From an uncultured Bacteroidota bacterium (lineage in GTDB: Bacteria; Bacteroidota; Bacteroidia; JABEUT01), in contig CAIWVW010000079.1 in the NCBI GenBank assembly GCA_903916255.1, positions 1-57,143 of the forward strand: a stretch of 57,143 nt of DNA. The letters run 5' to 3'. A program made the translations under genes and the position numbers. How positions within the stretch are numbered: the stretch's first letter is position 1; each line of letters begins with the position of its first letter. Positions 209 through 22,418 of the stretch are shown here, piece by piece. A model generated the notes under the pieces. It made no database searches and had not been told where the DNA came from. It worked only from the letters and a program-made list of their open reading frames with translations.

Positions 209-2632
209 CTATTTCTTCATCAGCTCAATCTTCCTTACCATTGTTCCGCCGCTGGTTTGCATGCGCAGGGTATAAACTCCTGCTGCAAGGTTTCCAAGGT
301 TGAGTTGTTTTATGTTTTTACCAACTGTTTGTGTTTCGGTGTTATCGTAGACGGCTTGTCCAAGTTCATCATATATGCTTATCCTCACTGACGACTGGCC
401 ACTGTTCACTGACCACTGTATTGTAATTTGCCCATTGCTTGGGTTGGGGTAAATGTTGAGGTTGGAAATAGAATTATTTAAATTTGATATACTTGATGGG
501 ACTACACTTTTGCTATTCGAAGAAGAAACATTCGTTTCAACAGTTGATGTTGAATGTGGTTTTATTCTGGTAGTTGGAATACATGGCCCCGAAGGATTTA
601 CTGCATCAACCCTGTATATTGAATAGGGAGTACCCAAAGTATCAGTATAACTGCGAAAACCGGAAGGCAGTGAATCAATTTGAATTAAATTATTCATTGC
701 TGTTCCCCGAAGAATTCTATACATGGATGGTGTAAAACCAACGTAAGCAGTCCACCTTAACAGATTAGTTGTACCTTCATTGGTATCCCAAAGCCAGATT
801 GTTGTATGCGGGGCGCTTAATGCCGAAACACCACAGGTATCCACTGTTGCCAATGCATAAGTATACGGCGCAGATTCAGGATAAGATGTTATGTCTAAAT
901 AATCGCTATATGCTGTTAGAGGTTGACTATTTATTAAAGTGTAATTATAGCTTGAATCTAATTTATAAACATTATATGAGCCTGATGAAGGTGAGTTTGT
1001 TCGCCCCCAAATTATTTCATTGTGCCCTGTTGCTGAATCTACGGTTACTATGCAAATGTCCTGTACATAAAGATTCGCACAGCCTGCAACAACTATGGTT
1101 TTAGTCACTGTATCAGGGCCGCACAGAGTGTTGGCAATAACGGTATAGGTAGTAGTAACAGAAGGCGTAACATCAATACTTTGAGTAGTTGCACCAGTAG
1201 ACCAAATAAAAGTTGCAGATGGTTCATTACAAGAAACTGTAAGGTGAGCCGTGTCCCATAGTGGTAAAGTATCGGGAGATGCAATAACGGTTACTAAAGG
1301 TGGAGTAGACAGAACTGTAACCGAAATGGATTGGGAGCAACCTGTAGAATCCGTTACTGTAACGGAATATATTCCAGCGCTTAGCCCATAAATTGAATCT
1401 GTTGTTTGTCCACCCGGAGACCATGAATAGGTATATGGTGGAACACCTCCGGAAACAAGCACTTTGGCAGTGCCTTTATCCATAGCACAATAATAGTTGG
1501 TGGAGGCTGGATTAATAAATACACAGGGACTTGAATATTTAAAAACTACGCCAGACCATGGAGGCACTGTACCACCTACGTATGCAGTACCATATAAGGC
1601 ATTCCCCGAATAGGTCAAACTTCCTAAAGGATAACCCCCATTTGTACTGTTAAAATCAAAAAGTTTATTATAACCACTGCCATCAGTGTCTATAGCAAAC
1701 ATAACACCATAACCGTTTGCACCACCTTCTTCCGCTAAACCGAACAAATCTTTATGTGAAAGAGTGAATGAACCGTTGGGATAAGCACCGTTTAATGAAT
1801 CAAAATTAATTAATTTTCTATATCCAGTGCCATCAGTATGAACTGAGAAAGCAGTACCCAAATAATAAGTTCCACCACGAGAAGTCATTCCATACAATAC
1901 ATTTCCTGAAATAGCAACTTCGCCTAATGGTATTGAACCATTACTACCATTAAAATCAAGAATATCTTTATAATTTCCACCATTCGTGTCTATAGAAAAT
2001 ACGCATCCGCTGTCATTTACTCCTCCGTTTTGTGTCATGCCATATAATGTATTTCCTACCAATTTCAAACTTCCATAAGGATAGGCGCCATCGGTATCAT
2101 TAAAGTCGAAAATATCACGATAATTACTCCCATCAGTATGTATTGAAAATACACAACCATAATTATAAAGGGTTCCAGTTTGTCCCATTCCATACAAAGT
2201 ATTTCCAGATAATACCATAGTACCAACCGGGAAACCTCCATTTAGCCAAAAATTATAAAGAACTGTAAATCCTGAACCATCAGTATCTATTGAAAATATC
2301 ATACCTTCATGGTATGGTCCGCCATTACTTGTCACCCCAAATATCTTATTACCGAAAAAAGTTAAAGAACCTTGTGGAGGGGAGCCAATTGTGTCATAAA
2401 AATTGTAAAGGTTATTAAATCCCCCTCCATCCGTTTGCACAGAGAAAATATTACCAAAGCCATTTGTCCCCCATGACGTAAAACCATATAATACATTTCC
2501 AGAAAGTGCTAAATTATTTGATGGGTTACCACCGTTCGCATGATTAAAATTAACCAGGTTGGTCATTTGAGCACTGCCGTCACCCATTCCCAAACCCAAA
2601 AACCCAATTATCAATAAGCAATATTTTTTCAT
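209..2632 (-). CDS. T9SS-secreted GloVer-repeat protein
   Basis: Predicted secreted surface protein of 807 residues. Residues 1-22 form a signal peptide ending SAQ. Residues of about 30-375 hold seven repeats of roughly 50 residues of the GloVer type (TIGR03803-like; core pattern GNxLYGMT..GG...GxxFSIxTDGxxY..L..F). One SprB-like repeat (PYTYSWSPGGQTT, about 395-440), an Ig-like stretch, the shared FN3-like module (from ICIVTVDSATG) and a C-terminal type A sorting domain (NIYPNPSNGQ to the final MKK) follow. The sorting domain means export across the outer membrane by the T9SS and anchoring or release at the surface. The repeats may form a propeller-like fold, but no ligand can be inferred. 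It is last in a minus-strand series and has its own terminator. Confidence 0.9.
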   Translation of the reverse strand: MKKYCLLIIGFLGLGMGDGSAQMTNLVNFNHANGGNPSNNLALSGNVLYGFTSWGTNGFGNIFSVQTDGGGFNNLYNFYDTIGSPPQGSLTFFGNKIFGVTSNGGPYHEGMIFSIDTDGSGFTVLYNFWLNGGFPVGTMVLSGNTLYGMGQTGTLYNYGCVFSIHTDGSNYRDIFDFNDTDGAYPYGSLKLVGNTLYGMTQNGGVNDSGCVFSIDTNGGNYKDILDFNGSNGSIPLGEVAISGNVLYGMTSRGGTYYLGTAFSVHTDGTGYRKLINFDSLNGAYPNGSFTLSHKDLFGLAEEGGANGYGVMFAIDTDGSGYNKLFDFNSTNGGYPLGSLTYSGNALYGTAYVGGTVPPWSGVVFKYSSPCVFINPASTNYYCAMDKGTAKVLVSGGVPPYTYSWSPGGQTTDSIYGLSAGIYSVTVTDSTGCSQSISVTVLSTPPLVTVIASPDTLPLWDTAHLTVSCNEPSATFIWSTGATTQSIDVTPSVTTTYTVIANTLCGPDTVTKTIVVAGCANLYVQDICIVTVDSATGHNEIIWGRTNSPSSGSYNVYKLDSSYNYTLINSQPLTAYSDYLDITSYPESAPYTYALATVDTCGVSALSAPHTTIWLWDTNEGTTNLLRWTAYVGFTPSMYRILRGTAMNNLIQIDSLPSGFRSYTDTLGTPYSIYRVDAVNPSGPCIPTTRIKPHSTSTVETNVSSSNSKSVVPSSISNLNNSISNLNIYPNPSNGQITIQWSVNSGQSSVRISIYDELGQAVYDNTETQTVGKNIKQLNLGNLAAGVYTLRMQTSGGTMVRKIELMKK

Positions 2633-2654
2633 GTGTTTTATTTTAATTCATTTC

Positions 2655-2662
2655 CAAAGATA
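2655..2662 (-). promoter_or_regulatory. Bacteroidota -7 promoter element
   Basis: TATCTTTG on the minus strand matches the TAnnTTTG element used by the Bacteroidota primary sigma factor. It lies 22 bases before the ATG at 2632. I see no convincing -33 box at the right distance. The surrounding 100 bases are nearly identical to those before the 12144-15278 gene. Confidence 0.65.
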
Positions 2663-2692
2663 TATACAATACTAACTCCATGTTCCCCCATT

Positions 2693-2748
2693 TATTATAC
2701 GGCGGGTTTCACTTATTAAACGGTAAGTTTTTGCCTTTAAATGGTAAA
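2693..2748 (-). repeat. Shared intergenic block, copy 1
   Basis: This block of about 55 bases (containing GGCGGGTTTCACTTATTAAA and TTTTTGCCT) recurs at 15341-15396 and 22473-22528, each time between a T9SS gene's terminator and the promoter of the next gene downstream. It points to duplication of whole gene-plus-spacer units. Confidence 0.8.
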
Positions 2749-2755
2749 ACAAAAA

Positions 2756-2779
2756 AACCCCGCCATTCCTAGCGGGGTT
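2756..2779 (-). terminator. Intrinsic terminator after the 2809-7572 gene
   Basis: Arms AACCCCGC (2756-2763) and GCGGGGTT (2772-2779) with an 8-base loop, followed on the minus strand by a T-rich run. It separates two T9SS genes, so they are probably transcribed separately. Confidence 0.8.
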
Positions 2780-2808
2780 CACTTTATACTTTCTACTTTT
2801 AGCTATTC

Positions 2809-5800
2809 CTATTTCTTCATCAACTCAATCTTCCTTACCATTGTTCCGCCGCTGGTTTGCATACGCAGGGTATAAACGCCTGCGGCAAGGTTTCCAAGGT
2901 TGAGTTGTTTTGTGTTTTTACCAACTGTTTGCGTTTCGGTGTTATCGTACACGGCTTGTCCCAGTTCATCATATATGCTTATCCTCACTGACGACTGACC
3001 ACTGTTCACTGACCACTGAATTGTAATTTGTCCGTTGGAGGGGTTGGGGTAAATGTTCAAATTAGATAGATTGATTCCAATATTCTGAACACCCAATTCA
3101 ACGGTATTAAATCCATTCGACAGCGAACCTGTAAGATTGAACTTAGCCCCGTGCGGCTTAATTCGTGCGGTTGGCACACATAATCCTGATGGGTCGCCGG
3201 CCTCTACCAAATATACAGAGCCTGCCGGAGGCAATGTATCGGTATACGTTAAAACAGAATTTAATGTAGAATCAATCAATACGAGCGCGCCCATGCTTGG
3301 CCCGCGGAAGATGTAGTATTTGGTAGGCGTAAATCCTATGTATGCGGTCCAGTTTAGGATGTAGGTATTCACACCTGCCGTTACGGTTAAGTAAATGGTA
3401 GTATTTACGGCGCTCAAAGCCGATTGCCCGCAACTGTCGACTGTAGCAAGCTCATAGCTTACAGGCCCTGTAGCCGGAGCTGAATTCGGGTCGATAAATT
3501 CGCTCAATACATTCAGCGGTTGCGTGTGTGTCGACTCAAATCCTAAGGTAGAATCTTTATATACATTGTAATATCCATAGCCATTTTGTGGTGGAGAATT
3601 TGTTCTGCCCCAAAGCACTTCGGCCTTGCCCGTAGCGGTATCCACTGAAACTATGCAAATAGGTTCGTTATAATTATTCGCACAAAAAATACTATCCACA
3701 TATACGGTTATATACGCCGTATCAGTTCCGCAAGGCGTAACAGATATAACCCTGTAAGTAGTAGTTGCCGGAGGCCTCACCGTTATGGTGGAAGTTGTTG
3801 CTCCATTGCTCCACAGATAGGTAGCGTTAATATCGGAATAGGCTGTTATAACTGAACTACCGCCACTAACAGTTATCGTATCCGGTGAAGCAATTGCAAA
3901 CAGCGTAGCAATTGTATCGCTCGGAACCCATGCAGTAACAGATTGTATGCAACCCGTAGAATCTTCCACCGTTACCGTATAACTTCCACCCGAAAGCCCG
4001 CTGATAGTTTGCGTTGTTTGTCCGCTTGGTAACCACACATAGGTGTATGGCGCATAGCCGCCCGTAATGGTTGCCGTAGCCGTTCCGTTATTTGCGCTGC
4101 AATCTGCAGCGGTTGTATTCACAGAAAGTCCGAAACATTCCACATATACCGTAATAGTATCGACAGAACTGCTGCAAGGCGAGGTCATCGTTACCGTATA
4201 TGTGGTGGTTACCGGTGGGTGCACCTGAATAGTAGATGTGGTGGCTCCGTTACTCCATGCATACGTAGCGGAAACACCATTGCAATATGCGTTCAGAGTA
4301 GCCGTATCGCCTACAAAAATGGTATCCGGCGTAGCCGAAACACTGTAACTTGGGAACCCGTAATACACATTCACATCCCGCAATTCCCGGCAGCCCGTGG
4401 AATCGGTAACGGTAACTGTATATGTTCCGTTCGTTAATCCTGAAACGGTAGCTGTGGTTTGTCCGCCGGGAGCCCATAAATAGGTATAAGGCGGTATTCC
4501 GGGGCCGTAGGCAAAGACTGAAGCCGAAGCTGTCGGTAAACCGCACATGGAGATTGTGGAGGAATATCCAACACTGAAGCATCCCGACACAGTAATTGTA
4601 ACCGAATCATACAGCGTATCGCAAGCTGTAATAGCCATGCAGGTATAGGTAGTGGTAACCAATGGGCTGGCATTCGGATATTGGGCAGTAGAGTCATCCA
4701 ATGTTGCTGCGGGAGACCATAAAAATGTTGCGCCTACATTAATGTTGGCTTGAAGCATCGAGCTGTTTCCCGGGGTAATGGTTGAAGGCGATGCAAAAAT
4801 GGAGAATGAAGGGCTGGCGGATGATACGCCTATGGAACCGGAATAGCTGCATCCATTGTAATCATACACCACAACCGAATAAGTACCTACGCTTAATCCG
4901 GTAGCCGTTTGATTGGTTTGCCCGGTGGGTGTCCATAAATAAGTATAGGGTGCATTTCCGCCGGATGGAATAACAAAAGCCGTCCCCAACGAACTGTCGC
5001 AATAAAAATGCGTGGAATATATGTTTGCCGTAAATGTACATGCTCCCACATAAACAGTTACCGTATCGGTAATTGTATCGCAACCATTTATAATAGTGCA
5101 GGTATATGTAGTAGTTACCGTGGGTGTGGCATAGGTAACAGGAGAATTCGGATTAAAAACGGACGGGGCCCATGAATAAATGCCCGGCATATTGCTCGAT
5201 ACGGATAACAAGGTAGTATCTCCGCCGGAAATATGCGTAGGGCTGGCCGATATGGCTGCAGATGGCGCAGCAGTTGAAATAGTAACCGAATCGAAAGAAG
5301 AGCAACCGTTACCATCGTGCACCAATACATAATATACGCCTGCACTCAGGCCGCTGATAGATTGGGTAGTTTGTCCGCCCGGTGACCATTGGTAGGTATA
5401 CGGAGCAGTACCATTCAAAGGCAGCACATAGGCAGAACCTTTTTCCAAGTTGCAATAGTATGGGAAAGATGCCATAGAATCGCTCAGGAAACAGCCTACA
5501 TTAACAGTTACCGTTTGCGTATCCGTTCCGCAGGGAGTAGTAATAATGCAGGAATAGGTGGTGGTTACCGTTGGTGTTGCATAGGTTTTTGCTGAATCGG
5601 CATATTGCACCGAAGCGGAAGGCAACCACTGATACGTAGCCGGCTGCAGGCTGCTGGATGCGGAAAGCAGGGTACTGTCTCCTAATGGTAGCGAATATGG
5701 GCTGGCGCTTATGGTAAACGAGGGGCCTGTGGTAGCGATGGTAACTGAAGCCGAAAGTGTGCATCCGTTGCTGTCGGTAACCGATACGGTATAGGAACCG

Positions 5801-7572
5801 GCGCTTAATCCGGTAACACTGTCTGTTGTCATTCCGCCCGGCGACCATGTGTATGTGTAAGGTTCTTTACCTCCATACATAATGATATATGCGCTTCCAT
5901 TGTTGGCCGAGCAGGTAGTTGGCGTTTCGTCGGTATAGGCTGTGAGGTTGCTATAATACAGCGATACGGTTATCGGGGAAGAAGCAGAGCATCCGTTACT
6001 ATCGGTAACCGCAACGGTATAAGTTCCCCAACCAAGGCCTGTAACCGTTGCCGTTGTTTGTCCGCCGGGGCTCCATAAATATGTATACGGAAGAGTACCG
6101 CCCGTTGGCACTACCGTTGCTGTGCCGGCTGTAGGAGGGCAGAGCAGCTGGTTGCCGGAATAAACATTCACACCTAATGGCTTAGTATTATTAACCGTTA
6201 CAGATGTTGTAAGTGTGCATCCGCTGTTGTCGGAAATGCTGACGGTGTATGTTCCCGCAGGAACAGAAATAGAAGATGTAGTAGCCGAATTGTTCCACAA
6301 GTAGGTATATGGAGTAACACCTCCGGTTACAAATACACTGGCGCTTCCGTTATGCGAGCAAGTTGCATTTGTATTGGTAGTGGTAAAAACCATACCAAGG
6401 TTTAGTACGGTTTCAACAGCACTGGCGCAAGTGTTTCCATCGCTTACATAAACGGTATAGGTACCGGCAGAAAGGCCTGTTACGCCTGCATTGGTCGAGC
6501 CGCCGGGCGACCATGAATAGGTAAGCGGCCCTGTTTGCCCTGCAACAGCCACCATGGCAACTCCATTATTGGCGCATGTTGCAGCTATAGGATTCGGGGT
6601 TAAGGTCATGGTGGTTGCAACCGGAACACAGGTAGTGCAAGTGGTGTTTTGCCAGTAAAGCCCTGCCACGCCAACAAAGTAGCAATCGGAAGTATTATTG
6701 GTGTAAGTGTTATACACAAGTGAATTTTGTCCCGAGGTTAAGCTGACGGGCACATTGCAATAGTTCCAGAAGTTGTTTGGAAAAACGACCGTGTTGCCAT
6801 TATATGTTTCCGTATTTGTTCCGCCATTTACATTGGCTTGCACATCGCCAATCAGGGCAAAGGCCGTCCCGGTCGACGCATTGCAAGCGGTAAAGCTTCC
6901 GGCCGTAAACGTTTCGCTTACCCCGGCATCATTACTTAAATCGCCATCGTAAAGCGCCATGCTGCCGTTATATGCAGCCGTAGGGTCGCTGTAAACTATT
7001 ATAAGGGTAACGCCATCCACTTCGTAATTGGCATTGGCAAAACCGTTTAAATCGACTGTATAATTTCCGCTTCCGGTTATTAAAGAAGTTACATCGGCGC
7101 GATACGTGGCAGAGCCATTTCCCACCCAGCATATATTATCGGAAGTAGTTCCGCAAAGGGCAGCCGGTATGGTAGACACGGCTAATGCCGGATTGGTAAT
7201 GGTAGCGCTGGTAGTTGGCGGAGTAGCTTCCGTAAAAGTACAGCCATAATATAAATATGCCTTCACTATAGACGCGCAACCCGAAGGCGGCAGCGCAGAA
7301 ATGGTGAGTGTAGTTGGGAACCCTGTTCCCCAGGTATCGGTGCTGATGGTTTGGGTGCGTGTTTCGGTAAGTTGGGTAGCTTGCACATAGTTCAACCCGC
7401 AAACATTTGTTACCAGATAGCTTTGAGTCAATCCCCCGTTAATGCTTGCTGCAACCTGATGTGCCGTCATAGGCCCATGCGGACCACTGTTGCCGTTGCC
7501 GTATTGCGCATAGCAAAGCGTGAAGAGTGAAGAGCTAAGGGATAAGAGTGTAAGCAGTAGTAATTTTTTCAT
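2809..7572 (-). CDS. Giant T9SS adhesin with eight SprB-like repeats
   Basis: Predicted surface adhesin of 1587 residues. I start it at the ATG at 7572, because it opens a clean signal peptide (MKKLLLLTLL... to CYAQ); the frame is open 18 codons further up but that adds a charged extension. Residues of about 25-330 form a globular domain resembling DUF3344 (IVKAYLYYGC, ADVTSLI, YEVDGVTLIIVYSDP). Eight SprB-like repeats follow (pattern PYTYLWSPGGQTT.. GLSAGTYTV.VTDSNGC), interleaved with Ig-like segments (ISASP....GDST). The shared EPICIVSVDTATG module and a type A sorting domain close the protein. SprB of Flavobacterium johnsoniae is a gliding adhesin, but these repeats occur in many surface proteins, so a gliding role is only possible. 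Confidence 0.9.
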   Translation of the reverse strand: MKKLLLLTLLSLSSSLFTLCYAQYGNGNSGPHGPMTAHQVAASINGGLTQSYLVTNVCGLNYVQATQLTETRTQTISTDTWGTGFPTTLTISALPPSGCASIVKAYLYYGCTFTEATPPTTSATITNPALAVSTIPAALCGTTSDNICWVGNGSATYRADVTSLITGSGNYTVDLNGFANANYEVDGVTLIIVYSDPTAAYNGSMALYDGDLSNDAGVSETFTAGSFTACNASTGTAFALIGDVQANVNGGTNTETYNGNTVVFPNNFWNYCNVPVSLTSGQNSLVYNTYTNNTSDCYFVGVAGLYWQNTTCTTCVPVATTMTLTPNPIAATCANNGVAMVAVAGQTGPLTYSWSPGGSTNAGVTGLSAGTYTVYVSDGNTCASAVETVLNLGMVFTTTNTNATCSHNGSASVFVTGGVTPYTYLWNNSATTSSISVPAGTYTVSISDNSGCTLTTSVTVNNTKPLGVNVYSGNQLLCPPTAGTATVVPTGGTLPYTYLWSPGGQTTATVTGLGWGTYTVAVTDSNGCSASSPITVSLYYSNLTAYTDETPTTCSANNGSAYIIMYGGKEPYTYTWSPGGMTTDSVTGLSAGSYTVSVTDSNGCTLSASVTIATTGPSFTISASPYSLPLGDSTLLSASSSLQPATYQWLPSASVQYADSAKTYATPTVTTTYSCIITTPCGTDTQTVTVNVGCFLSDSMASFPYYCNLEKGSAYVLPLNGTAPYTYQWSPGGQTTQSISGLSAGVYYVLVHDGNGCSSFDSVTISTAAPSAAISASPTHISGGDTTLLSVSSNMPGIYSWAPSVFNPNSPVTYATPTVTTTYTCTIINGCDTITDTVTVYVGACTFTANIYSTHFYCDSSLGTAFVIPSGGNAPYTYLWTPTGQTNQTATGLSVGTYSVVVYDYNGCSYSGSIGVSSASPSFSIFASPSTITPGNSSMLQANINVGATFLWSPAATLDDSTAQYPNASPLVTTTYTCMAITACDTLYDSVTITVSGCFSVGYSSTISMCGLPTASASVFAYGPGIPPYTYLWAPGGQTTATVSGLTNGTYTVTVTDSTGCRELRDVNVYYGFPSYSVSATPDTIFVGDTATLNAYCNGVSATYAWSNGATTSTIQVHPPVTTTYTVTMTSPCSSSVDTITVYVECFGLSVNTTAADCSANNGTATATITGGYAPYTYVWLPSGQTTQTISGLSGGSYTVTVEDSTGCIQSVTAWVPSDTIATLFAIASPDTITVSGGSSVITAYSDINATYLWSNGATTSTITVRPPATTTYRVISVTPCGTDTAYITVYVDSIFCANNYNEPICIVSVDTATGKAEVLWGRTNSPPQNGYGYYNVYKDSTLGFESTHTQPLNVLSEFIDPNSAPATGPVSYELATVDSCGQSALSAVNTTIYLTVTAGVNTYILNWTAYIGFTPTKYYIFRGPSMGALVLIDSTLNSVLTYTDTLPPAGSVYLVEAGDPSGLCVPTARIKPHGAKFNLTGSLSNGFNTVELGVQNIGINLSNLNIYPNPSNGQITIQWSVNSGQSSVRISIYDELGQAVYDNTETQTVGKNTKQLNLGNLAAGVYTLRMQTSGGTMVRKIELMKK

Positions 7573-7722
7573 GACATAAACTTTATTTGAGTTATATAAC
7601 CGATTTTCCCCGAAAATAGTGTGCAATAGTAGCTATTTCTTTTTTTAGCCTTAGTAATCACAGAGGAATTCATGAGTAATAACGCATTTGCTAATGAAAA
7701 TGTTGGGTATATGGTAAAAAAG

Positions 7723-7753
7723 TAAACCCCTGACATTTGGTGTCAGGGGTTTA
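7723..7753. terminator. Perfect bidirectional terminator hairpin
   Basis: Perfect 13-base arms TAAACCCCTGACA (7723-7735) and TGTCAGGGGTTTA (7741-7753) with a 5-base loop, and T-runs on both exits. No intact gene ends here on either strand, so it may be left over from a lost minus-strand gene. Confidence 0.75.
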
Positions 7754-7774
7754 TATTTTTAGGCTGTGGTTATT

Positions 7775-7999: not shown

Positions 8000-8006
8000 A
8001 TAAGGT

Positions 8007-8807
8007 ATGAATGAGAATATATTAACAAAACAGGAAATACAACGTGCCTTGGCTTATGCAGCGATAAGCCCAGAATTAAGGCAAGATAATATCGTTGGAC
8101 AATGTGTTGAAAGAACAGATGTTCTTAAAATATCTCCCAAAAGTGGGGTGATATTTATATTGGGAGACTTATATACAGGGTTTACGCACTTAAATGAACG
8201 GCATGGTTTTTCCACCAATAAAACATTTTGGACCGGTGATGGAAAAATAGACACCCCAAGTAGATTTGGCAAAGGTGCGATTCCAATTACGCACTATATA
8301 AGAATCGCCGATGTCCTCTATATGCCTGAAAACAAGAAAAACGAAAAGAACAAGTACCCTGACTTATTTGATATTTACGAAGCGAAAGTTGATGACCCCG
8401 ACATGGGGAGTGAAGAATATCGATTAATACTTTATAAGGATACACCCATTATTCACACTCTCTTTCCTCTATCAGATAAAAGCAAGAAAAAGAAGTATAT
8501 AAATCTTCGGCGAGGAAAACCACAGGGAAATATGACCTTGGAGCCATTACAAACCATTATGGGAATTCCATATTGGAATGGAAGTAATGAAGTTGAATAC
8601 TCCTTCGTGCTTGATAAGAACTATGAAACAATGGAAGAAAAGGGAATTTTTGTGGATAATAAACTGAACAAGCAGATTATTTTATACACCAGGACCATAG
8701 AGAAATTTGAGAAAATTGAGGATACTGCAAACGGTCTTTTGAATGCAGACATGAGTGAATTTGAAAAATACATTAGGCGTGTTGAAAATTATAAAAAAGA
8801 GAAATAA
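8007..8807 (+). CDS. Putative BECR-fold (PBECR-like) nuclease
   Basis: Soluble 266-residue protein without signal peptide or membrane segment. The stretch GFTHLNERHG (about 59-68) followed by ITHYIRIADVLYMP and, later, YRLILYKDTPIIHTLFP resembles the His-containing helix and central strands of barnase/EndoU/ColicinE5-D/RelE-like nuclease domains found in phage and toxin proteins. That reading rests on pattern only; catalytic residues are not proven. The C-terminal 70 residues (KLNKQIILYTRTIEKF... YKKEK) are helical and charged. It is the only plus-strand gene within a 22-kb minus-strand array and is AT-rich, which suggests separate acquisition. No obvious antitoxin or immunity gene adjoins it. 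Otherwise it is a hypothetical protein. Confidence 0.55.
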   Translation: MNENILTKQEIQRALAYAAISPELRQDNIVGQCVERTDVLKISPKSGVIFILGDLYTGFTHLNERHGFSTNKTFWTGDGKIDTPSRFGKGAIPITHYIRIADVLYMPENKKNEKNKYPDLFDIYEAKVDDPDMGSEEYRLILYKDTPIIHTLFPLSDKSKKKKYINLRRGKPQGNMTLEPLQTIMGIPYWNGSNEVEYSFVLDKNYETMEEKGIFVDNKLNKQIILYTRTIEKFEKIEDTANGLLNADMSEFEKYIRRVENYKKEK

Positions 8808-12143: not shown

Positions 12144-15100
12144 CTATTTCTTCATCAACACCACTTTGCGGATTGTTGTTCCGCTTGTGGTTTGCATACG
12201 CAAGGTGTAAATGCCTGCCGCAAGTGATTCAAGGTTCAGTTGTTTTGTGTTTTTACCAACCGTTTGGGTTTCCGTGTCGTCATATACAACTTGTCCCAGT
12301 TCATCATATATGCTTATCCTCACTGCCGACTGACCACTGTTCACTGACCACTCTATTGTGATTTGTCCGTTAGAGGGGTTCGGATAGATATTCAAATTAG
12401 AAATGGCATTTTTTACATTTTCAACACCCAAAATTGCTGTATTAAACCCATTGGAGAAAGAACCTGAAAGAGTAGCAGCATTCATGCCATGCGGTTTTAT
12501 TTTTGTAGTTGGAATACATGCACCGGAAGGATTAACAGCCTCTACCAAATAGATGGAACCTGCAGGCGGGAAAGAATCGGTGAATGTCAGAATTCCTCCG
12601 GGAACGGAATCAATCTTCACAAGTGAACCCATAGTAAGTCCCCTGAAAATACGGTATTCGGATGGAGTAAATCCAACATATGCGGTCCAGTTCAGTATAA
12701 ATGAATTTACGCCCGTTGAAACAACTAAATAAACAGTAGTATGCGGTGAGCTCAGTGCTGATTCTCCGCAGGAATCATCGGTAGATAACTCATAGCTCAC
12801 AGCCCCTGCCGACGGATTGGAAAGCGGGTCTAAATACTCACTCAGTACATTCAAAGGTTGCGAATGTGTCAGTTCATATCCGAGTGTAGAATCTTTATAA
12901 ATATGGTAAGAACCCGTTCCTACAGGTGAATTTGTCCTGCCCCAAATTACTTCTGCAAAGTTGGTAGCAGTATCTACTGTAGCAATGCAAATCGGTTCAT
13001 TATAACTATTGGCACAGGGCCCCACCGTTACTGTAATAGTAGCTGTAAATGTTCCGCAAGCAGTAACAGCGGTGCAGGTGTAGGTGGTGGTTACCGTAGG
13101 TGTGGCTTCGGTGCTTGCCCAAGTTGGATGGGTTACTGATGAGGAAGGAGCCCATGAAAAAGTGGCGGGAACATTGCAATTGGCAGATAATATGCCACTG
13201 TCGCCTAAAGCTATAGAAGACGGGCCGCTTAAGGTTACGGATGGTGTGGCAACTACATTAATTGTAAACGTAGTATCCTTCTGGCATGTGCCATTAAAAG
13301 CCTCCAGTGTAAAAGTCTTAGTTACGGTAGGCGCCGCAGGAAGATATGCATTTGTTGAACCGGAAGGCATCCAGATATAGCTTGCTCCACCTGTAGCCCA
13401 CAAAGTATCTTTAGAACCCGGACAAATAGTATCTATTCCGGCAATATGAGGTGTGGGAGGGGCATAGATAGTAATGGCAATAGAAGTATCTGAACTGCAT
13501 CCGCCACCATTGGCAACTTTTAAAGTTACTGTAAATGTGCCTGCGCTGCTGAATAAATGCCCCGGATTAGCAAGTGTTGAACTGTCGTGTATACCTGTTG
13601 CAGGGTCACCGAATATCCAATCATATATAGTAGTTCCGGGTGCATGAGGCGTAAAGAATGACGAATCGCCAAAGCAAGTTGGGTTTATTGTAAAGGTTGG
13701 GTTAACAAGATTACTGTCTACCTTCACTGTAATTAATGTATCGGTTCCACAGCCACCAAATAATTCCTCTAGTTTTACGGTATATGTTCCGGGTAAGGCG
13801 TAGGTCCATGTTGGATTTACCACATTGGTATCGTTGTAATTCCCCAGATTATAAAAATCCCAGTTGAAAGTCCCGCTAATCGGATTAGACGTATTGGTAA
13901 ATGAGGTGGGTTGCCCTGCACATACTATATTTGAAGTAAAGTTCGGGTGAATGGAAGCCGCTGGCAATTTGCCCAGTGTTACCGAAATGGTATCGGAACA
14001 TAAATGGCCAAGGATAGGATTTACTACAACCGAATATGTTCCGGCGCTATCTACCCAAATATTTTGCAAACTGTCATTACTCAAAATGCCATTTGCAGGG
14101 CCTGACCAGAAATAAGAACCGGCACCGGGAGGAGCGCTTAATTCAACAGAATCGGTTCCGCATATATTGGGAGAAGAAGTAGTGACCGTAAGCGGTGAAC
14201 AGGAAGCATCTACGTAGGCATAGCCAAAGTGGCCACCCTGTCCGCAGTCGGTAGATTCAAAAGTAATAGTAACACATTGCCCTACATAATGATTTAGAGG
14301 TACAGTCGTCATGTTCCAGTTTTTGTAATATACCCAGGTGCCTTCATAGAGCGTACTATCAAAGCCATGGATACCATAGCCTGAAGTAACCAGGTATTCC
14401 CCGCATGCCGGTATTGTATCTCCATTTTCATCTAATATAGTAACTGAAAAAATAGGTTGATTTCCATAGCAGTGACCAGGGTTTTCAAGCAATACCGCAT
14501 ATTCATATGTAAGGTTTTCATTGCCGGGTGTAACCAAAAATGTTTTGCTTAGAATAGCAGCCCCAAATCCTAGCCAGGTACTGTCGCCAAGCATAACTGA
14601 ATGAGTTCCTCCCCAGGGTGAAACTCTTGATATAGATGGTACAATAGCATCATTTCCGCCCGAAGTAATAGATAATTGGTAATCGGTAGTAAGAGCATTA
14701 TATGACGCTGTAACCGGGTCGTTGCAAGCCTCGGTAACTGCGCCCAGGGCTCCGCCTGTAATTCCGGATATTGTAGCGGTTACACAGTTATTAGCCTTTG
14801 TTGCATAATACCCATACCAGCCATTGAAATTGCCATTTTCAAAACCCATATTATTGCAGCCGGTAGAATCGCAGGGATTGACAGATGGCACTACCCGCGG
14901 ACGCGCATATTCACTTACAGAAGAAGGATACATTTTTTTAGCATTCTTGAATTTCAGATAGAGTAGCCGGATATTGTTTTCAGTTGTTTTCAAGGTATTG
15001 GAAACAGCTATAGCATCGAAATTCTCTTTACGCGCATCAGACAAAAGCCCTGCTTTTAATACTTGCAAAGGGTTTTCTTCAAACCTGGTGAAGGTTGCAA

Positions 15101-15278
15101 AATCCTCTGCAGACAGATTGTTTGCAACCCTTATATTTTCCATGGCAGCCGACCATTGTGAAAAAACCGTTTCAATTTGCTCAGCCTTTATTGGTTTAGC
15201 TATACATGTATTGCTTGTTTGTGCCACTGCTATTGCCGAAATGAAACAAGCGCCAATAAAAAGAGTGATTTTTTTCAT
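12144..15278 (-). CDS. T9SS-secreted PKD-domain protein
   Basis: Predicted surface protein of 1044 residues with a signal peptide (about 1-19, to AVAQ). Residues of about 25-100 are helical and charged, unlike the rest of the locus. A lectin-like or choice-of-anchor beta-sandwich domain follows (GFENGNFNGWYGYY, about 145-365), then an Ig-like segment, two PKD-type domains (GTFNWDFYNLGNYND... WTYALPGTYTVKL and YDWIFGDP... GHLFSSAGTFTVTLKV), another Ig-like segment, the shared EPICIATVDTATN module and a C-terminal sorting domain. The last 80 residues are almost the same as those of neighbours with different N-termini. It has no SprB repeats. The role is unknown; binding of glycan or protein is a guess from the fold types. 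Confidence 0.9.
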   Translation of the reverse strand: MKKITLFIGACFISAIAVAQTSNTCIAKPIKAEQIETVFSQWSAAMENIRVANNLSAEDFATFTRFEENPLQVLKAGLLSDARKENFDAIAVSNTLKTTENNIRLLYLKFKNAKKMYPSSVSEYARPRVVPSVNPCDSTGCNNMGFENGNFNGWYGYYATKANNCVTATISGITGGALGAVTEACNDPVTASYNALTTDYQLSITSGGNDAIVPSISRVSPWGGTHSVMLGDSTWLGFGAAILSKTFLVTPGNENLTYEYAVLLENPGHCYGNQPIFSVTILDENGDTIPACGEYLVTSGYGIHGFDSTLYEGTWVYYKNWNMTTVPLNHYVGQCVTITFESTDCGQGGHFGYAYVDASCSPLTVTTSSPNICGTDSVELSAPPGAGSYFWSGPANGILSNDSLQNIWVDSAGTYSVVVNPILGHLCSDTISVTLGKLPAASIHPNFTSNIVCAGQPTSFTNTSNPISGTFNWDFYNLGNYNDTNVVNPTWTYALPGTYTVKLEELFGGCGTDTLITVKVDSNLVNPTFTINPTCFGDSSFFTPHAPGTTIYDWIFGDPATGIHDSSTLANPGHLFSSAGTFTVTLKVANGGGCSSDTSIAITIYAPPTPHIAGIDTICPGSKDTLWATGGASYIWMPSGSTNAYLPAAPTVTKTFTLEAFNGTCQKDTTFTINVVATPSVTLSGPSSIALGDSGILSANCNVPATFSWAPSSSVTHPTWASTEATPTVTTTYTCTAVTACGTFTATITVTVGPCANSYNEPICIATVDTATNFAEVIWGRTNSPVGTGSYHIYKDSTLGYELTHSQPLNVLSEYLDPLSNPSAGAVSYELSTDDSCGESALSSPHTTVYLVVSTGVNSFILNWTAYVGFTPSEYRIFRGLTMGSLVKIDSVPGGILTFTDSFPPAGSIYLVEAVNPSGACIPTTKIKPHGMNAATLSGSFSNGFNTAILGVENVKNAISNLNIYPNPSNGQITIEWSVNSGQSAVRISIYDELGQVVYDDTETQTVGKNTKQLNLESLAAGIYTLRMQTTSGTTIRKVVLMKK

Positions 15279-15301
15279 AAAAATTTATTTTAATTCATTT
15301 C

Positions 15302-15309
15302 CAAAGATA
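15302..15309 (-). promoter_or_regulatory. Bacteroidota -7 promoter element
   Basis: TATCTTTG on the minus strand, 23 bases before the ATG at 15278. The region around it matches 2640-2750 almost base for base, including the -7 element and leader start. Confidence 0.65.
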
Positions 15310-15340
15310 TATACAATACTAACTCCATGCTCCCCCATTT

Positions 15341-15396
15341 ATTATATGGCCGCTTTCACTTATTAAACGGTAGCTTTTTGCCTGTAAATGGTAAAA
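15341..15396 (-). repeat. Shared intergenic block, copy 2
   Basis: Near-identical to 2693-2748 and similar to 22473-22528. It sits between the terminator of the 15471-18893 gene and the promoter of the 12144-15278 gene. Confidence 0.8.
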
Positions 15397-15399
15397 AAA

Positions 15400-15429
15400 G
15401 TGAACCCCGCCATTTCCGGCGGGGTTCAC
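15400..15429. terminator. Perfect 12-base-stem terminator
   Basis: Arms GTGAACCCCGCC (15400-15411) and GGCGGGGTTCAC (15418-15429) with loop ATTTCC. On the minus strand it ends the 15471-18893 gene and is followed by a run of seven T bases. Confidence 0.85.
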
Positions 15430-15470
15430 TTTTAACTTTTTACTTTCTACTTTATACTTTTAACTATTAC

Positions 15471-18400
15471 CTATTTCTTCATCAGCTCAATCTTCCTGAC
15501 CATTGTTCCGCCGCTGGTTTGCATACGCAGCGTATAAACGCCTGCCGCAAGTGATTCAAGGTTCAGTTGTTTTGTGTTTTTACCAACTGTTTGTGTTTCG
15601 GTGTTGTCATAAACCACTTGTCCCAGTTCATCATAAATACTCATACGCACTTCTGACAACAGACCACTGTTCACTGACCACTCTATTGTAATTTGTCCGT
15701 TTGATGGGTTGGGGTAAATACTCAGGTTGGTAACATTGCTGATGGAAGGCACACCCAATGTGGTGGTGGGATTAATAACCTTTTTGCGGTTCGATAAGGA
15801 CGTATAACTTTCCTTATTTCCGCCATGCGGGCGAACCCTTGAAGTTGGAATACACGGGCCGTTGGGGTTAATGGCGCCTACCATATAATATGCCGGCGAA
15901 GGCGGAATGGTATCATGATAGGTAAATGTTGTAGGGCCAACGGAATCGATTTCCACCAGGTTACCCACGTTGCTTCCGCGATAGATAAGGTAACCTACCG
16001 GGCTGAAACCTACATAAGCGGTCCAGTTAATTATATTCACATTGGTCTCCATCGTGTCCCACATGTATATGGAAGTATGCGGTGCACTTAGCGCCGATAT
16101 GCCGCAACTGTCTACCGTTGCCACTTCGTAGGTTGAGGAATTCAGCCATGGGCGCGATGATGTGTCGATATAATCGGTAAGGCTTGTAAGCGGCACCGTA
16201 GCAATCAGCGAATAAGAGTTGGAGGATGTTTCCTTATAGATATCATACGAACCATCGGGCGGAGAACCTGCCCTGTCCCATATAATTTCATTCCTGCCGC
16301 TGGCCGTGTCGATAGACACGATACAAATGTTCACCGTGTAATTATTTGTGCAGTTAATATCTATTGTTACTGTGCTGGTATAGGTTCCGCAAGGCGTGGT
16401 AGAAGTAACCGTATAGGTAGTAATTACGGTTGGGTCTACATACGTTCCGGATGAATTAGGCGTGCTGCAACTTGCACTCGGAGCCCATGAGAAGGTAGCC
16501 GATGATACATCGCAAGTGGCGTAAATATAGGTACTGTCGCCTGCATTGATGGAGGTAGCTCCATATGAATTCAAAGTAACTGAATCAGTCGGAACTGTTA
16601 CCGAACTCATTAAACTGCATCCGTTGGCATCATATATAGCCACTGAATATGTACCTGCACTCAGGCCGGTAATAGTTTGCGTGGTTTGTCCGCCCGGTGT
16701 CCATAAATAGGTGAATGGAGCAACGCCATTCGATGGGTCCGCTTGCGCTGAACCTTCAGCTCCGCTGCAATAGTAAGGCATTTTTTTCATGGTAGCCGTC
16801 ATATAGCAGCCCACATAAATGGTAACCGTGTCGATATACGTTCCGCAACCGGTGGTATAGGTACATGTATAGGTAGTGGTTGTTGATGGGGTTGCATAGC
16901 TTGACGCGGCGTTCGGGTTGGTTACATTTACCGAAGGGCTCCACGAAAATGTGGTTCCGGGAACGCTGCAGGTTGCCGAAAGCAAGGTACTGTCTCCCAA
17001 GGTAACATGGGTTGGGCTACCGTTTATGGTATATGAAATGGCAGCCGAAGAAACACCTACGGTACCGGAGGTTTGACAACCATTCGAATCATTTACGGTA
17101 ACGGTATAGCTACCAATTGACAGCCCGGTAATAGATGCGGTGGTTTGTCCGCCCGGCGACCAGCTGTATGTATAGGGGGCAACACCTCCCGTTGCAGTGG
17201 CTGTAGCTGTTGCAGCATCGGCTGCGCAGTAGTAGGAAGTTTTTGAAATGGAAACCGATATTGTTGAACTATCGGCAATAACTGTTGTACTGGCCGAAGT
17301 AGTACATCCGTTGCTGTCGATTACATTAATAGTATACGTTCCTGCGGAAAGCCCGGTTGCAGTTGCGGTTGTTTGTCCGCCGGGAGTCCATAAATAGGTA
17401 TAGGGTGTTGTTCCGGCAGAAACAATTACACTGGCTGTTCCTAATGTGGAAGGGCAGGAATAATAAGGAGTCGATGATGCGCTGCAGCCTAAAGTAGAAA
17501 GGTTTAATATGGTCGTAGAATCTGATAACATACAACCGTTGTTATCGGTTACTGTAAGGCTATACGAACCCGATGCCGCTGTTATGGATGAAGTGGTTGC
17601 ACCGTTGCTCCATAAATAAGTATAAGGCGCTGCACCTCCGGTTACGCTTATAGAAGCCGTTCCGGGAGCAGAACAATGCGCATCGGTATTCGAAATGGCT
17701 AATACCATGCCTAAATTGCCAACCGTTACGGTATCGGCAGCGCAGGTGCTTCCGTCATTTACATCAACGGTATAAAATCCCGGAGGAAGTCCGGTAGCAG
17801 TTGCCGTTGTTTGTCCGCTTGGCGACCATGTGTATGTCAGCGGGCCTGCTGCCCCTACTACAGTAACGCTGGCGGTGCCATTGTTTCCGCAGGAAGCAGG
17901 TGCAGATGCCGTAGTTAACGTCATAGTAGTAACGGTAGGTGTGCAGGTCATGCAATTGGTGTTTTGCCAGTAAAGCCCTGCGCATCCTATAAAATAACAA
18001 TCGCTGGTATTGTTCATGTAGGTATTAAAGATAATACTGTCTTGTCCGGCCGTTAAAACCACAGGTATATTGTCATAGTTCCAGAAATTATTCGGAAAGG
18101 TTGCATTCACTCCATTATACTCTTCGGTATTGATTCCACCGCTAACGTCAGCCTGAACATCGCCCATCAAGGCAAAAGCTGTTCCGGTGGCTCCGCTGCA
18201 CGCAAGGAATCCGCCGCCGGTAAATGATTCCGGCAAACCGGCATCGTTGCTCAAATCGCCATCCCAAAGGGCCATGCTGCCGCTGTAGGTAGCAGTTGGG
18301 TCGGAATAAACAATTACCAGGGTAACGCCATCCACTTCATAATTTGGATTTGCAAACCCGTTCAGGTTTACAATATAGTTTCCGTTGCCGCTGATGATAG

Positions 18401-18893: not shown

Positions 18894-19074
18894 GGGTCTG
18901 GTTGTTTTATTTATTTTTTAGGGGAGGTTACAGATTACAATGTTAAGAATTTTTAGTCAATTAGCAAAACATAAAGTCACATTTCTTATAAAAAGCTATA
19001 AACTATCTATCCTTCGAACGACTCTTACGTATAAATTTAGCCAAAGGTTGGGTGGTTCAGTAAAACTATTTCAA

Positions 19075-19175
19075 AATAAACCCCTTGTGCCAAAGCAATT
19101 AAATTCATTAAACTTTATTTCTGCTCCTCCTGCACCGTTATTCCATTTTCTTTAAAAAAGGAATAAAGGGAATCT
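19075..19175 (-). pseudogene. Remnant of a second copy of the 19712-20263 gene end
   Basis: On the minus strand 19119-19175 reads DSLYSFFKENGITVQEEQK and a stop, matching the last residues of the 19712-20263 protein (DSVYSFFKENGLMVQEEQK). The following bases continue to match the sequence behind that gene (LIALAQGVY) to about 19081. The remnant begins right at the stop codon of the tonB-like gene, marking a duplication junction. Confidence 0.85.
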
Positions 19176-19620
19176 AAAGCTTAAATGGCACTCTAACAAT
19201 ATCACTTACTCTTACGGGTTTACCGTTTTGCATCCCTGGAGACCATTTTGGCATCTTAGCAACCAATCTTTTTGCTTCATTATTTAAACATGTATCAGGT
19301 GAACGTAATACTCTTACACTTGATATTGAACCATTCTTTTCAATAATACAACTTAAAAATACAGTTCCCTGAATATTTTTTTTTCGTGCTTGTTCAGGAT
19401 ACTGAATGTTATCGGAAAAATATTTGTTAATATCTCCGGAAAATTTTGGTTGTATCTCAGCTTTCATATACACCTTCATACTATCAGGTGGAGAACTATA
19501 AAAATCACGAGAAATATCTCCTCGCACTCCACCATCATTATTGTCATTCTGAGCGTATATACCATCACATCCTATTAGGATAAAAAAGAATAAAAATAAA
19601 ACTTTACTTGTGGTGTTCAT
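19174..19620 (-). CDS. TonB C-terminal domain protein, possible lipoprotein
   Basis: 148 residues. The last 85 residues (YPEQARKKNIQGTVFLSCIIEKNGSISSVRVLRSPD... LVAKMPKWSPGMQNGKPV) form a TonB C-terminal domain as in the many small TonB-family proteins of Bacteroidota. The N-terminus is a signal sequence with LIGC at about 15-18, a good lipobox, rather than the long anchored and proline-rich arm of a true energy transducer. It is therefore unlikely to power transport by itself and may act in the periplasm or outer membrane. It sits between a remnant and the gene from which the remnant derives, so it may have arrived with the duplication. Confidence 0.8.
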   Translation of the reverse strand: MNTTSKVLFLFFFILIGCDGIYAQNDNNDGGVRGDISRDFYSSPPDSMKVYMKAEIQPKFSGDINKYFSDNIQYPEQARKKNIQGTVFLSCIIEKNGSISSVRVLRSPDTCLNNEAKRLVAKMPKWSPGMQNGKPVRVSDIVRVPFKL

Positions 19621-19711
19621 ATTTTAATGAATTTTATTGTTTTATATTCACCGTTTATGTCAGCAACAAAAAGATAAACCCCTTGTGCCAAAGCAATTAA
19701 TTCATTAAACT
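19617..19711 (-). pseudogene. Decayed T9SS sorting-domain tail
   Basis: Behind the stop codon of the 19712-20263 gene, in another frame, the minus strand reads LIALAQGVYLFVADINGEYK TIKFIKI (split here), which has the form of the last part of a type A sorting domain (LxxGVYxL...). It ends just before the tonB-like start codon. Confidence 0.65.
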
Positions 19712-20263
19712 TTATTTCTGCTCCTCCTGCACCATTAAGCCGTTTTCTTTGAAAAAGGAATAGACCGAATCTACTGTTATACGTATTTTGTCTCCTGACC
19801 ATTGGGCTGTTTTTTCTGAAATATCAATAAAATCAATAGCACCAAGAACAACCATATTATCTGTTTGAGACATTGTATCAACTACATTCCAAGGTTCTGT
19901 TGGAATTCCAAGAATTACCCCGTTCTTTTGGGGAAGATAAGCCCCCCCATCAGATTCCGTCACATAGATATCGCTACCCTGCATATGTCCGCCCCGAGTT
20001 ATAATTTTTACAGTCCCTAATTTAAGCTGTGGAGCGCCTCTATACACCTTGGTTATCTGAACTATACAGCAAGTCATTACTTTGCCTTTCTTGTTGTAGT
20101 AAGGTTTCCAACATATCAATTGGCCTTCAAATATATACTTTGCATCTTGAATAGAGGACTCGTGATATTTCTTTAGATTTTGGGATGACATATGTTGACC
20201 ATAAGAATAAAATGAGAAAATTATAGAAATAAAAAACGACATGAGCATTTTAGTAGTTTTCAT
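19712..20263 (-). CDS. Secreted protein, probably a truncated T9SS substrate
   Basis: 183 residues with a signal peptide (about 1-22, to SYGQ). The body (AKYIFEGQLICWKPYY... VQITKVYRGAPQLKLGTVKI... GGAYLPQKNGVILGI) has the pattern of a small beta domain seen near the N-terminus of longer secreted Bacteroidota proteins, with strands around a receding V.KVY+G motif. No sorting domain is in frame, but one is recognisable directly after the stop in another frame, so the gene may once have been longer. A partial second copy of its end lies at 19075-19175. Function unknown. Confidence 0.75.
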   Translation of the reverse strand: MKTTKMLMSFFISIIFSFYSYGQHMSSQNLKKYHESSIQDAKYIFEGQLICWKPYYNKKGKVMTCCIVQITKVYRGAPQLKLGTVKIITRGGHMQGSDIYVTESDGGAYLPQKNGVILGIPTEPWNVVDTMSQTDNMVVLGAIDFIDISEKTAQWSGDKIRITVDSVYSFFKENGLMVQEEQK

Positions 20264-20268
20264 AATAA

Positions 20269-20335
20269 TTATATTTTAATAAATTTAATTGTTTTATATT
20301 CTCCATTTATGTCAGCAACAAAAAGATAAACCCCT
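20269..20335 (-). pseudogene. Second decayed sorting-domain tail
   Basis: The minus strand reads GVYLFVADINGEYKTIKFIK then a stop, identical in protein to the tail at 19617-19711. It lies just upstream of the 20263 start and runs into the terminator region of the 20385-22418 gene. No upstream part of its gene survives. Confidence 0.7.
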
Positions 20336-20357
20336 GCCGTTTATCGTATGGGGTTTA
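20327..20357 (-). terminator. Weak terminator hairpin after the 20385-22418 gene
   Basis: TAAACCCC (20327-20334) and GGGGTTTA (20350-20357) with a 15-base loop. The same sequence recurs at about 22533-22560 behind the sorting-domain remnant there. Confidence 0.55.
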
Positions 20358-20384
20358 CTTTCTACTTTTACTTTACACTTTCTA

Positions 20385-22418
20385 CTACTTACGCATTATC
20401 ACTACTTTGCGCACGGTGCTTCCGCTGTTGGTTTGCATACGCAAAGTGTAAATACCTCCGGCAAGAGATTCGAGGTTTAGTTTAAGCTGATGGCTATTTA
20501 CTGACGGCTGGTAGTTACTGAGGCTTTTATCATAAACCATTTGCCCCAGCTCATCATATATGCTTATACGAACGGACGACTGACCACTCACCATTGACCA
20601 CTCTAATGTAAATTCCCCATTGTTCGGGTTCGGATAAATATTCAGGTTGGAAATTGGATTATCAATATGCTGAACAGATAGAATTGCCGTATTAAATCCA
20701 TTGGAAAAAGAGCCCGAAAGCATAGCAGATGAAGCCCTGTGCCCTCTAATACTTGTAGTCGGAATACAGGCGCCGGAAGGATTAACAGCCTCTACGGCGT
20801 AGAATGAACCCACGGGAGGGAACGAATCGGTATAAGTTAATGTGCTGCTTGAAACCGAATCAATCTGAACCATAGCATTTAAAGCAGGGCCACGGAAAAT
20901 ACGGTAAATACTCGGCGTGAAACCGACATAAGGAGTCCAGTTTAAAATAAAAGAATTTACTCCGGCAGTAGTAGTCAAATAAATGGTGGTATGCGGCAAA
21001 CTTAAAGCTGACTCCCCACAACTATCCGTAGTTGATAATTCATAGCTTACCGGACCGATGGAAGGATTTGAATTCATATCCAAATATTCGCTAAAAACAT
21101 TTAGAGGCTGTGAATGTATGAATGCATAACCGGCGGTGGTATCCTTATATATATTATAGAATCCATATCCACCTTGTGATGGAGAATTGGTGCGACCCCA
21201 TATTACTTCGGCTTTGTTGGTGGCTGTGTCAATGGTTGCAATACAGATGGGTTCGGTGAATGAATTTTGGCAAAGGCTCAGTGAATACACACCTCCCCAA
21301 CATATACCTCCAGACCCCGCTTGACCAAATAATATTCCTCCGTTTAAGGTTAAAAAACCGCAAGGGTAGTTAAATGCATTTATAGCAGTATCACTGGTAA
21401 AATTCCAAAGATTTTGAAAATTTGATCCATTTGTGTCAATAGAGAAAATGGTTCCTCCACCATTTATACCACCAGCAGGGGTCGTTCCATACAGTATTCC
21501 ACTTGCAAGTGTTAACGCTCCAAGAGAACCAGAACCATTAGTATCATTAAAATCAAATATATCTTTAAAGTTAGCCCCGTTACTATCCAACGAAAAGATT
21601 ATACCCAAACCGTGGGCTCCGCCTAAGGCTGTCCCAAAGAGTTTCGAACCTGAAACTGTTAAATCACCCATAGGGTTACGCCCATTAGTATCATCAAAGT
21701 TTAATAAATCAGCATAATTATTACCAGTGGTATCTATTGTGAAAATCACTCCATAACTGGAATTCGAATGATGATTGTACGGGCCTCCATTATATGTCAT
21801 ACCAAAAAGCTTATTTCTAGATATTACAAGTGAATTCCCTTCAGGCCATTGACCGTTATTCCCGTTAAAACTTAATAATTCTGTAAAATCAGAACCATCT
21901 GTATGAATTCTGAATATTGTTCCATGAATTGTGTCAAAGCCCCCCTCATTCGTCATTCCGAAAAGTTCATTTCCTGAAATTAATAATGAACCGTATGATG
22001 GAAACGCGAGAGGGGAACTAAAATTATAAAGGACATTAAAACCATTACCACTAGTGTCTATAGTGAAGATAGTTCCAAAACTATCTACTCCGCCAAAAGT
22101 TGTAATTCCGTATAGCTGAGAACCGGAAATAATTAAAGAACCTTCCGGATTGTACCCTGAAGCAAGATTAAAATGATATAGATACCTGAAACCACTTCCA
22201 TCTTTATGGGAAGTAAAAATAAAGCCACTATCATTAGTACCTCCCTGCGATTGCATCCCATATAACTGATTATTTGAAATAAGTATCCGACCCTCTGCCA
22301 CATTGATATAACTGACCACATTAGAATCCGAGAAACAATGCAATATATTCAATTGAGATTTTACACTTAAAGAATATAATAATACTGCACTCAAAATGCC
22401 AAGTTTCAAATATTTCAT
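20385..22418 (-). CDS. T9SS-secreted GloVer-repeat protein
   Basis: 677 residues. Signal peptide about 1-22 (to SVKSQ). Seven GloVer-type repeats of about 50 residues fill residues 30-375 (for example GSQLYGITTFGGVDSFGTIF), then the shared module (EPICIATIDTATNKAEVIWG) and a type A sorting domain (NIYPNPNNGE to VVIMRK). It resembles the 209-2632 protein but lacks the SprB-like and Ig-like parts between repeats and module. The sorting domain carries a small change (SLSNYQPSVNSHQLKLNLES) relative to the others. It is the most upstream intact gene of the array. Confidence 0.9.
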   Translation of the reverse strand: MKYLKLGILSAVLLYSLSVKSQLNILHCFSDSNVVSYINVAEGRILISNNQLYGMQSQGGTNDSGFIFTSHKDGSGFRYLYHFNLASGYNPEGSLIISGSQLYGITTFGGVDSFGTIFTIDTSGNGFNVLYNFSSPLAFPSYGSLLISGNELFGMTNEGGFDTIHGTIFRIHTDGSDFTELLSFNGNNGQWPEGNSLVISRNKLFGMTYNGGPYNHHSNSSYGVIFTIDTTGNNYADLLNFDDTNGRNPMGDLTVSGSKLFGTALGGAHGLGIIFSLDSNGANFKDIFDFNDTNGSGSLGALTLASGILYGTTPAGGINGGGTIFSIDTNGSNFQNLWNFTSDTAINAFNYPCGFLTLNGGILFGQAGSGGICWGGVYSLSLCQNSFTEPICIATIDTATNKAEVIWGRTNSPSQGGYGFYNIYKDTTAGYAFIHSQPLNVFSEYLDMNSNPSIGPVSYELSTTDSCGESALSLPHTTIYLTTTAGVNSFILNWTPYVGFTPSIYRIFRGPALNAMVQIDSVSSSTLTYTDSFPPVGSFYAVEAVNPSGACIPTTSIRGHRASSAMLSGSFSNGFNTAILSVQHIDNPISNLNIYPNPNNGEFTLEWSMVSGQSSVRISIYDELGQMVYDKSLSNYQPSVNSHQLKLNLESLAGGIYTLRMQTNSGSTVRKVVIMRK

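Follow-up and report, generated by a model that had tools for sequence, protein, structure and literature searches.

A probable birth-and-death cluster of T9SS type A surface proteins with repeatedly recombining ends in an uncultured Bacteroidota bacterium

Overview

The six long minus-strand genes described here probably evolved by birth and death as a cluster of T9SS type A surface proteins, in which variable N-terminal payloads are held between ends that have recombined repeatedly. The modules of these proteins have discordant histories, and the tract leading from the sorting domain (CTD) of one gene to the start codon of the next is far younger than the remaining parts of the genes. The cluster occupies most of positions 209-22418 of the window, a term that designates the whole stretch of DNA analysed, i.e. 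one entire contig of 57,143 bp belonging to a draft genome of 3.74 Mb that comprises 149 contigs. On the basis of their sequences, the encoded proteins are predicted to be adhesin-like surface proteins exported by the T9SS. The coordinates of the genes and of the associated features are collected in Table 1.

Table 1. Genes, young tracts, promoter elements and relics of the cluster, with the divergent flanking genes
Feature	Positions	Strand	Content
P1	209..2632	-	7 GloVer, 1 SprB, FN3 pair (554-1075), CTD (209-457)
P2	2809..7572	-	DUF3344-like, 8 SprB, FN3 pair (3148-3678), CTD (2809-3066)
P3	9000..11978	-	DUF3344-like, 4 SprB, FN3 pair (9345-9866), CTD (9000-9242)
P4	12144..15278	-	N-terminal domain without family, PKD, FN3 pair (12486-13010), CTD (12144-12401)
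P5	15471..18893	-	DUF3344-like, 5 SprB, FN3 pair (15822-16346), CTD (15471-15719)
P6	20385..22418	-	GloVer, FN3 pair (20739-21266), CTD (20385-20644)
Young tract, copy 1	2637..3054	-	P2 CTD, stop, terminator, P1 promoter; ends right before the P1 start codon
Young tract, copy 2	15284..15719	-	P5 CTD, stop, terminator, P4 promoter
Element upstream of P1	2686..2725	-	Two repeats, period 21; E 6.6e-14 (model R1); -7 box at +40
Element upstream of P4	15333..15373	-	E 1.8e-12 (model R1); -7 box at +40
Element upstream of P6	22469..22505	-	E 1.9e-11 (model R1); -7 box at +40
Relic	22530..22700	-	Last ~30 CTD codons and terminator, no gene body; frame NLESLAAGIYTLHMQTNGGSAVRKVAIMGK, then stop
CTD fragment, other type	19620..19730	-	Out of frame with the preceding ORF; reads GAGGAEIKFNELIALAQGVYLFVADINGEYKTIKFIKI, then stop
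Divergent flank	22974..26629	+	CHASE3-PAS histidine kinase (22974-25583) and receiver-cNMP-Crp regulator (25580-26629); Pfam

Results

Composition of the cluster

The sorting domain Por_Secre_tail (PF18962/TIGR04183) was detected above the curated cut-off in all six proteins using Pfam and NCBIfam, the PF18962 scores ranging from 56.6 to 74.9 bits for a cut-off of 27. This type A CTD is located at the C-terminal end of each protein and is directly preceded by a second common module, named EPICI. The N-termini of the six proteins resemble Sec signal peptides when judged by eye, and each complete gene of the cluster combines such a putative signal peptide of its own with a sorting domain. The presence of a shared module and a sorting domain in all six proteins had been put forward in the original prediction, which was made from the sequence alone, and both were recovered here; the length of the module had to be corrected from about 190 to ~175 residues. 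In a protein search, its six copies are 48-100% identical to that of P4 with E-values of 7e-49 or better, and the match is therefore not due to chance. A structural model of the module, built from 25 homologues, shows two beta domains with high confidence (pLDDT 92), and its closest structural matches among PDB entries are tandem fibronectin type III (FN3) pairs (E about 1e-5). The whole-length TM-scores of these matches are low (0.3-0.4), as is expected if the interdomain angle differs, and the sequence profile of the module weakly matches an Fn3-like entry (E 0.008). As modelled, the EPICI module is a tandem FN3 pair, and it is referred to as such below. It is present in 35 of 60 related genomes, with up to 17 copies per genome, while a search in which the best 150 candidates were scored returned at least 150 CTD proteins in the present genome. 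The design that joins this module to a CTD is thus common, so that finding these proteins clustered is unremarkable in itself.

The N-terminal parts were predicted to contain 8, 4 and 5 SprB repeats in the three genes of the DUF3344 type and one further repeat in P1. The same numbers were obtained by BLAST in P2, P3, P5 and P1, respectively; 7, 3, 5 and 1 of these units pass Pfam (PF13573) alone. The figure of seven GloVer repeats in each of two genes proved about right, since NCBIfam (TIGR03803) identifies 7 stretches in P1 and 6 in P6. The DUF3344-like label is kept with reservation: a match to PF11824 occurs in P5 only (E 2e-4), its 21.3 bits lie below the gathering score of 27.2, and this score is exceeded in none of the proteins. 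The AlphaFold model of the same domain was poor (pLDDT 43) and was not used. P4 had been described as a lectin-like protein with a PKD domain; PKD_4 was indeed found by Pfam, but no Pfam match to its N-terminus was obtained even at E 10 and the lectin-like designation is not retained. The ORF of P2 spans 2809-7626, the ATG at 7572 being the better start.

Three non-T9SS ORFs are located within the span of the cluster, at 8007-8807 on the plus strand and at 19174-19620 and 19712-20263 on the minus strand. The first encodes 266 aa and has no Pfam or NCBIfam match, nor any similar sequence in the relatives' loci compared. Elsewhere in the window, three consecutive ORFs are found at 40970-42606, one of which (42082-42606) carries the collagen-like repeat PF01391, and an 18-nt tandem repeat, ACAGGAGCAACAGGGGCT, is located at 41045-41079. 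The sole mobile-element gene found in the window encodes an IS200-like Y1 transposase (PF01797).

Young sorting domains and old gene bodies

The FN3-pair modules are at or near synonymous saturation in nearly all to all within-cluster pairs, with a third-position identity of 30-49%, and the N-terminal modules are likewise saturated. The sorting domains of P1, P2, P4 and P5 are young, with a dS of 0.33 for P1/P2 and of 0.53-1.12 for the other pairs and a third-position identity of 61-84%. A permutation test on third positions placed the best shared segment within the CTD for every pair of these four genes (p 0.0005 for P1/P2, P1/P5, P2/P5 and P4/P5, 0.004 for P1/P4 and 0.02 for P2/P4). The most similar N-termini are those of P2 and P5 (76% identity, dS 2.3), and the dS of their CTDs is 0.54; their FN3 pairs share just 49% identity, and a sister relationship between them is rejected (AU p 0.005). 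The FN3-pair data also reject the groupings P1+P2 (AU p 0.0099) and P1+P2+P4+P5 (0.0068). Altogether, the conflicts between module trees are associated with AU p-values of 0.0001-0.01; several of the trees have weakly supported inner branches.

The two copies of the young tract listed in Table 1 are 86% identical over 436 nt, across the stop codon, the terminator and the whole intergenic region up to the next start codon. The intergenic part contributes 163 nt at 90% identity, and at the edge of the tract, just before the CTD, identity is about 50%. Given that the tract joining P2 to P1 resembles the one joining P5 to P4, P1 and P4 are alike at both ends and carry a wholly different payload. 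P3 and P6 barely take part in this homogenisation, with a CTD identity of 58-69%. Outside the cluster, the best CTD match at the DNA level reaches 68% over most of the domain and the remaining matches are short. High-identity CTD DNA is restricted to the cluster, and the exchange process is therefore local.

A shared promoter element with a period of 21 bp

A dispersed element located upstream of P1, P4 and P6 is built of direct repeats of the ACCGTWTAATAAGTGAAACCC type that recur every 21 bp exactly; two repeats are present before each of these three genes, and 2-3 per site overall. The genome was scanned for this motif with any repeat spacer from 2 to 30 allowed, using the reversed motif as a control. 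The spacer was 10, corresponding to the period of 21 bp, in all of the 20 genome matches and the reversed control produced 1 match; the 20 matches are not all independent, as some are adjacent pairs belonging to one three-repeat site and the promoters of P1 and P4 are related. A formal probability calculated from them is therefore too favourable, but the direction of the result is clear. Distinct element sites in the genome number 15, three of them in the window and 12 elsewhere. More sites were found in three other genomes, including that of the sister species described below, where the element precedes the P4 orthologue, and two further genomes gave single matches. The Bacteroidota -7 box TANNTTTG lies exactly 40 nt past the start of the last repeat in 14 of 33 distinct sites and is found at 39-41 nt in 16 of them, with just two boxes elsewhere in the next 120 nt.

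At least 10 of the 15 genome sites precede T9SS cargo genes, and the element is also found before other surface-protein genes. Assuming a background of 5-10% of genes, this enrichment in cargo corresponds to a binomial p of ~2e-7 or less. The element appears to mark membership in a wider T9SS-cargo regulon. Most of the element-bearing genes outside the cluster (eight loci) display another CTD subtype, NGIYxYRVxxExGxLxGEGKxxxQK, which the first gene of the sister-species cluster has as well; promoter element and sorting-domain subtype seem to go together.

By analogy with known direct-repeat sites, the element could possibly be driven by a LytTR-type activator. The genome contains 8 LytTR loci, one of which is broken by stops. 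A tree of 55 LytTR proteins from the genus singled out no candidate regulator, and an attempt to name one from LytTR presence and absence across the genus gave no clear match in this tree. The adjacent receiver-cNMP-Crp regulator was rejected as the binder: 10 of the 11 genus genomes encode this protein or a close homologue, several of these genomes have no such element, and palindromes are the usual targets of Crp proteins.

Relics of lost genes

The relic listed in Table 1 is 90% identical to the end of P6 (20331-20478). A decayed CTD of the other type, which is also listed there, has a shorter copy at 20290-20334, between P6 and P5; these fragments adjoin two small ORFs. In the same area, repeat pairs are observed at 19102-19176 and 19699-19773 and at 19619-19683 and 20271-20335. 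The TonB_C ORF (19174-19620) is flanked by a copy of the promoter of the neighbouring ORF and a copy of the 3' end of this neighbour; the region 19102-20335 looks as if one ORF was replaced within a duplicated slot. Relics of this kind are the expected outcome of repeated unequal recombination and gene loss. The relic, the second decayed sorting domain, the three non-T9SS ORFs and the shared promoter element had all escaped the original prediction.

The orthologous locus in a sister species

The flanking genes at 22974-28342 point to the orthologous locus of a second species in the genus (genome G002, contig C60), with 68-82% protein identity; the histidine kinase is 68% and the receiver-cNMP-Crp regulator 82% identical. 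This locus contains a GloVer gene that lacks the FN3 pair, a SprB gene that seems to be broken (13049-16372), an orthologue of P4 and a GloVer fragment, as well as two GloVer genes with the FN3 pair and one without. The DUF3344 type is found on another contig of the same genome. Strict one-to-one orthology with identical order, which would have told against the original prediction, is absent at this sole comparable locus, in a comparison made between species.

The CTDs of the G002 locus have been homogenised with one another (85-89% over ~180 nt), and the FN3-pair data reject the genes of this locus as a clade (AU p 0.003). In addition, the CTD data reject the grouping of P4 with its own G002 orthologue (AU p 0.0001). 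Homogenisation of the CTDs arose independently in the orthologous locus of the sister species.

Discussion

Origin of the cluster

In the birth-and-death cluster that we favor, the recombining 3' end would be made of the sorting domain and the terminator, and the 5' end would be the promoter common to P1, P4 and P6. The pattern of sequence identity points to ordinary homologous recombination between these similar ends, by gene conversion and unequal crossing-over. Over evolutionary time, payload genes would be gained, lost, swapped and combined anew with export signals, and each new combination would stay exportable and partly under the same promoter. A more specific version of this process can be entertained, although we regard it as rather doubtful: the mobile unit would be a 'bridge' comprising the sorting domain and terminator of one gene and the regulated promoter of the next. 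If this were true, a payload inserted between two bridges would at once be exportable by the T9SS and included in the regulon of surface proteins preceded by the 21-bp repeats, and a general, recombinase-free renewal of the surface proteome would operate in Bacteroidota.

The locus was originally proposed to be a cassette system for making surface variants. Module exchange and local recombination are supported by the results presented above, but programmed switching is not, as no dedicated recombinase was found in the window and silent cassettes and recent tracts are missing from the cluster. Programmed antigenic or phase variation, with reshuffling of the N-terminal cassettes inside a single strain by a dedicated recombinase or through frequent RecA-dependent exchange, would fit a cluster of paralogues with constant ends and variable payloads, as well as the high turnover between species. 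It is nevertheless very improbable: the window holds no invertase or integrase, its only recombinase-type gene being the Y1 transposase (53630-54121), and its single long inverted repeat pair is a terminator hairpin. No silent, signal-less donor cassettes are present in the cluster, and the youngest tract pair already has a dS of 0.33, none being young enough for within-strain switching. What the cluster displays is evolutionary mix-and-match of a known general kind and not a proven antigen-switching machine.

Plain tandem duplication followed by divergence, in which purifying selection on the export signal would keep the CTDs alike, draws some credit from the fact that the CTD is a functional signal and that tandem paralogues are common in the genus. 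This account is contradicted by the likeness at synonymous and intergenic sites, by the dissimilarity at the DNA level of the other CTDs of the genome and by the conflicting module trees, and we consider it quite improbable. The least probable explanation is an assembly artefact, with repeats near the contig end collapsed or chimerically joined. The draft does consist of 149 contigs and the cluster does reach the contig end, but the copies are not identical, differing at 6-14% of sites, and the same pattern is observed in the separate assembly of another species.

For the birth-and-death cluster preferred here, evidence from synonymous sites and trees in two species indicates that T9SS sorting domains can evolve in concert within a cluster while the payloads do not. 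Concerted evolution of the CTDs provides a concrete route of cargo renewal for a secretion system whose cargo genes number 150 or more in a genome. The promoter element, for its part, offers a testable handle on the co-regulation of a set of T9SS surface proteins, about which, to our knowledge, little is known beyond the PorX/PorY-SigP pathway of Porphyromonas. In a search of the open-access literature, no description was found of T9SS CTDs being homogenised within a cluster of this kind, nor of this promoter element.

Comparison with known systems

The direct repeats bound by AgrA, a LytTR protein, are centred near -60 (PMC4227749). As in these sites, the repeats described here are placed just upstream of the core promoter, the last one starting 40 nt before the -7 box. 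Unlike the AgrA sites, they have a different sequence (of the ACCGTWTAATAAGTGAA type), are associated with a Bacteroidota -7 box and come in sets of 2-3 at intervals of exactly 21 bp.

SprB repeats (PF13573) relate P1, P2, P3 and P5 to the SprB-repeat adhesins of gliding Bacteroidota, such as SprB of Flavobacterium johnsoniae (PMC8986121 for context). With 807-1587 aa, these four proteins are far shorter than such adhesins, from which they also differ in having a type A CTD, an FN3 pair and an N-terminus of the DUF3344-like or GloVer type; there is no evidence that they have a role in gliding.

The closest precedent is the domain rearrangement of the gingipains and HagA in Porphyromonas gingivalis, where Kgp, RgpA and HagA undergo domain rearrangement and allelic exchange, are mosaic between strains and have been proposed to be subject to gene conversion (PMC5266723). 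In both systems, T9SS cargo proteins couple a conserved C-terminal domain to modules that can be interchanged; in the gingipains and HagA, these are adhesin modules. The payload families of the present cluster are unrelated to the gingipains. The parts exchanged in the gingipains and HagA are adhesin domains located between the enzyme and the CTD, and they are exchanged between strains, whereas the young part identified here comprises the CTD, the terminator and the promoter of the next gene, inside one cluster.
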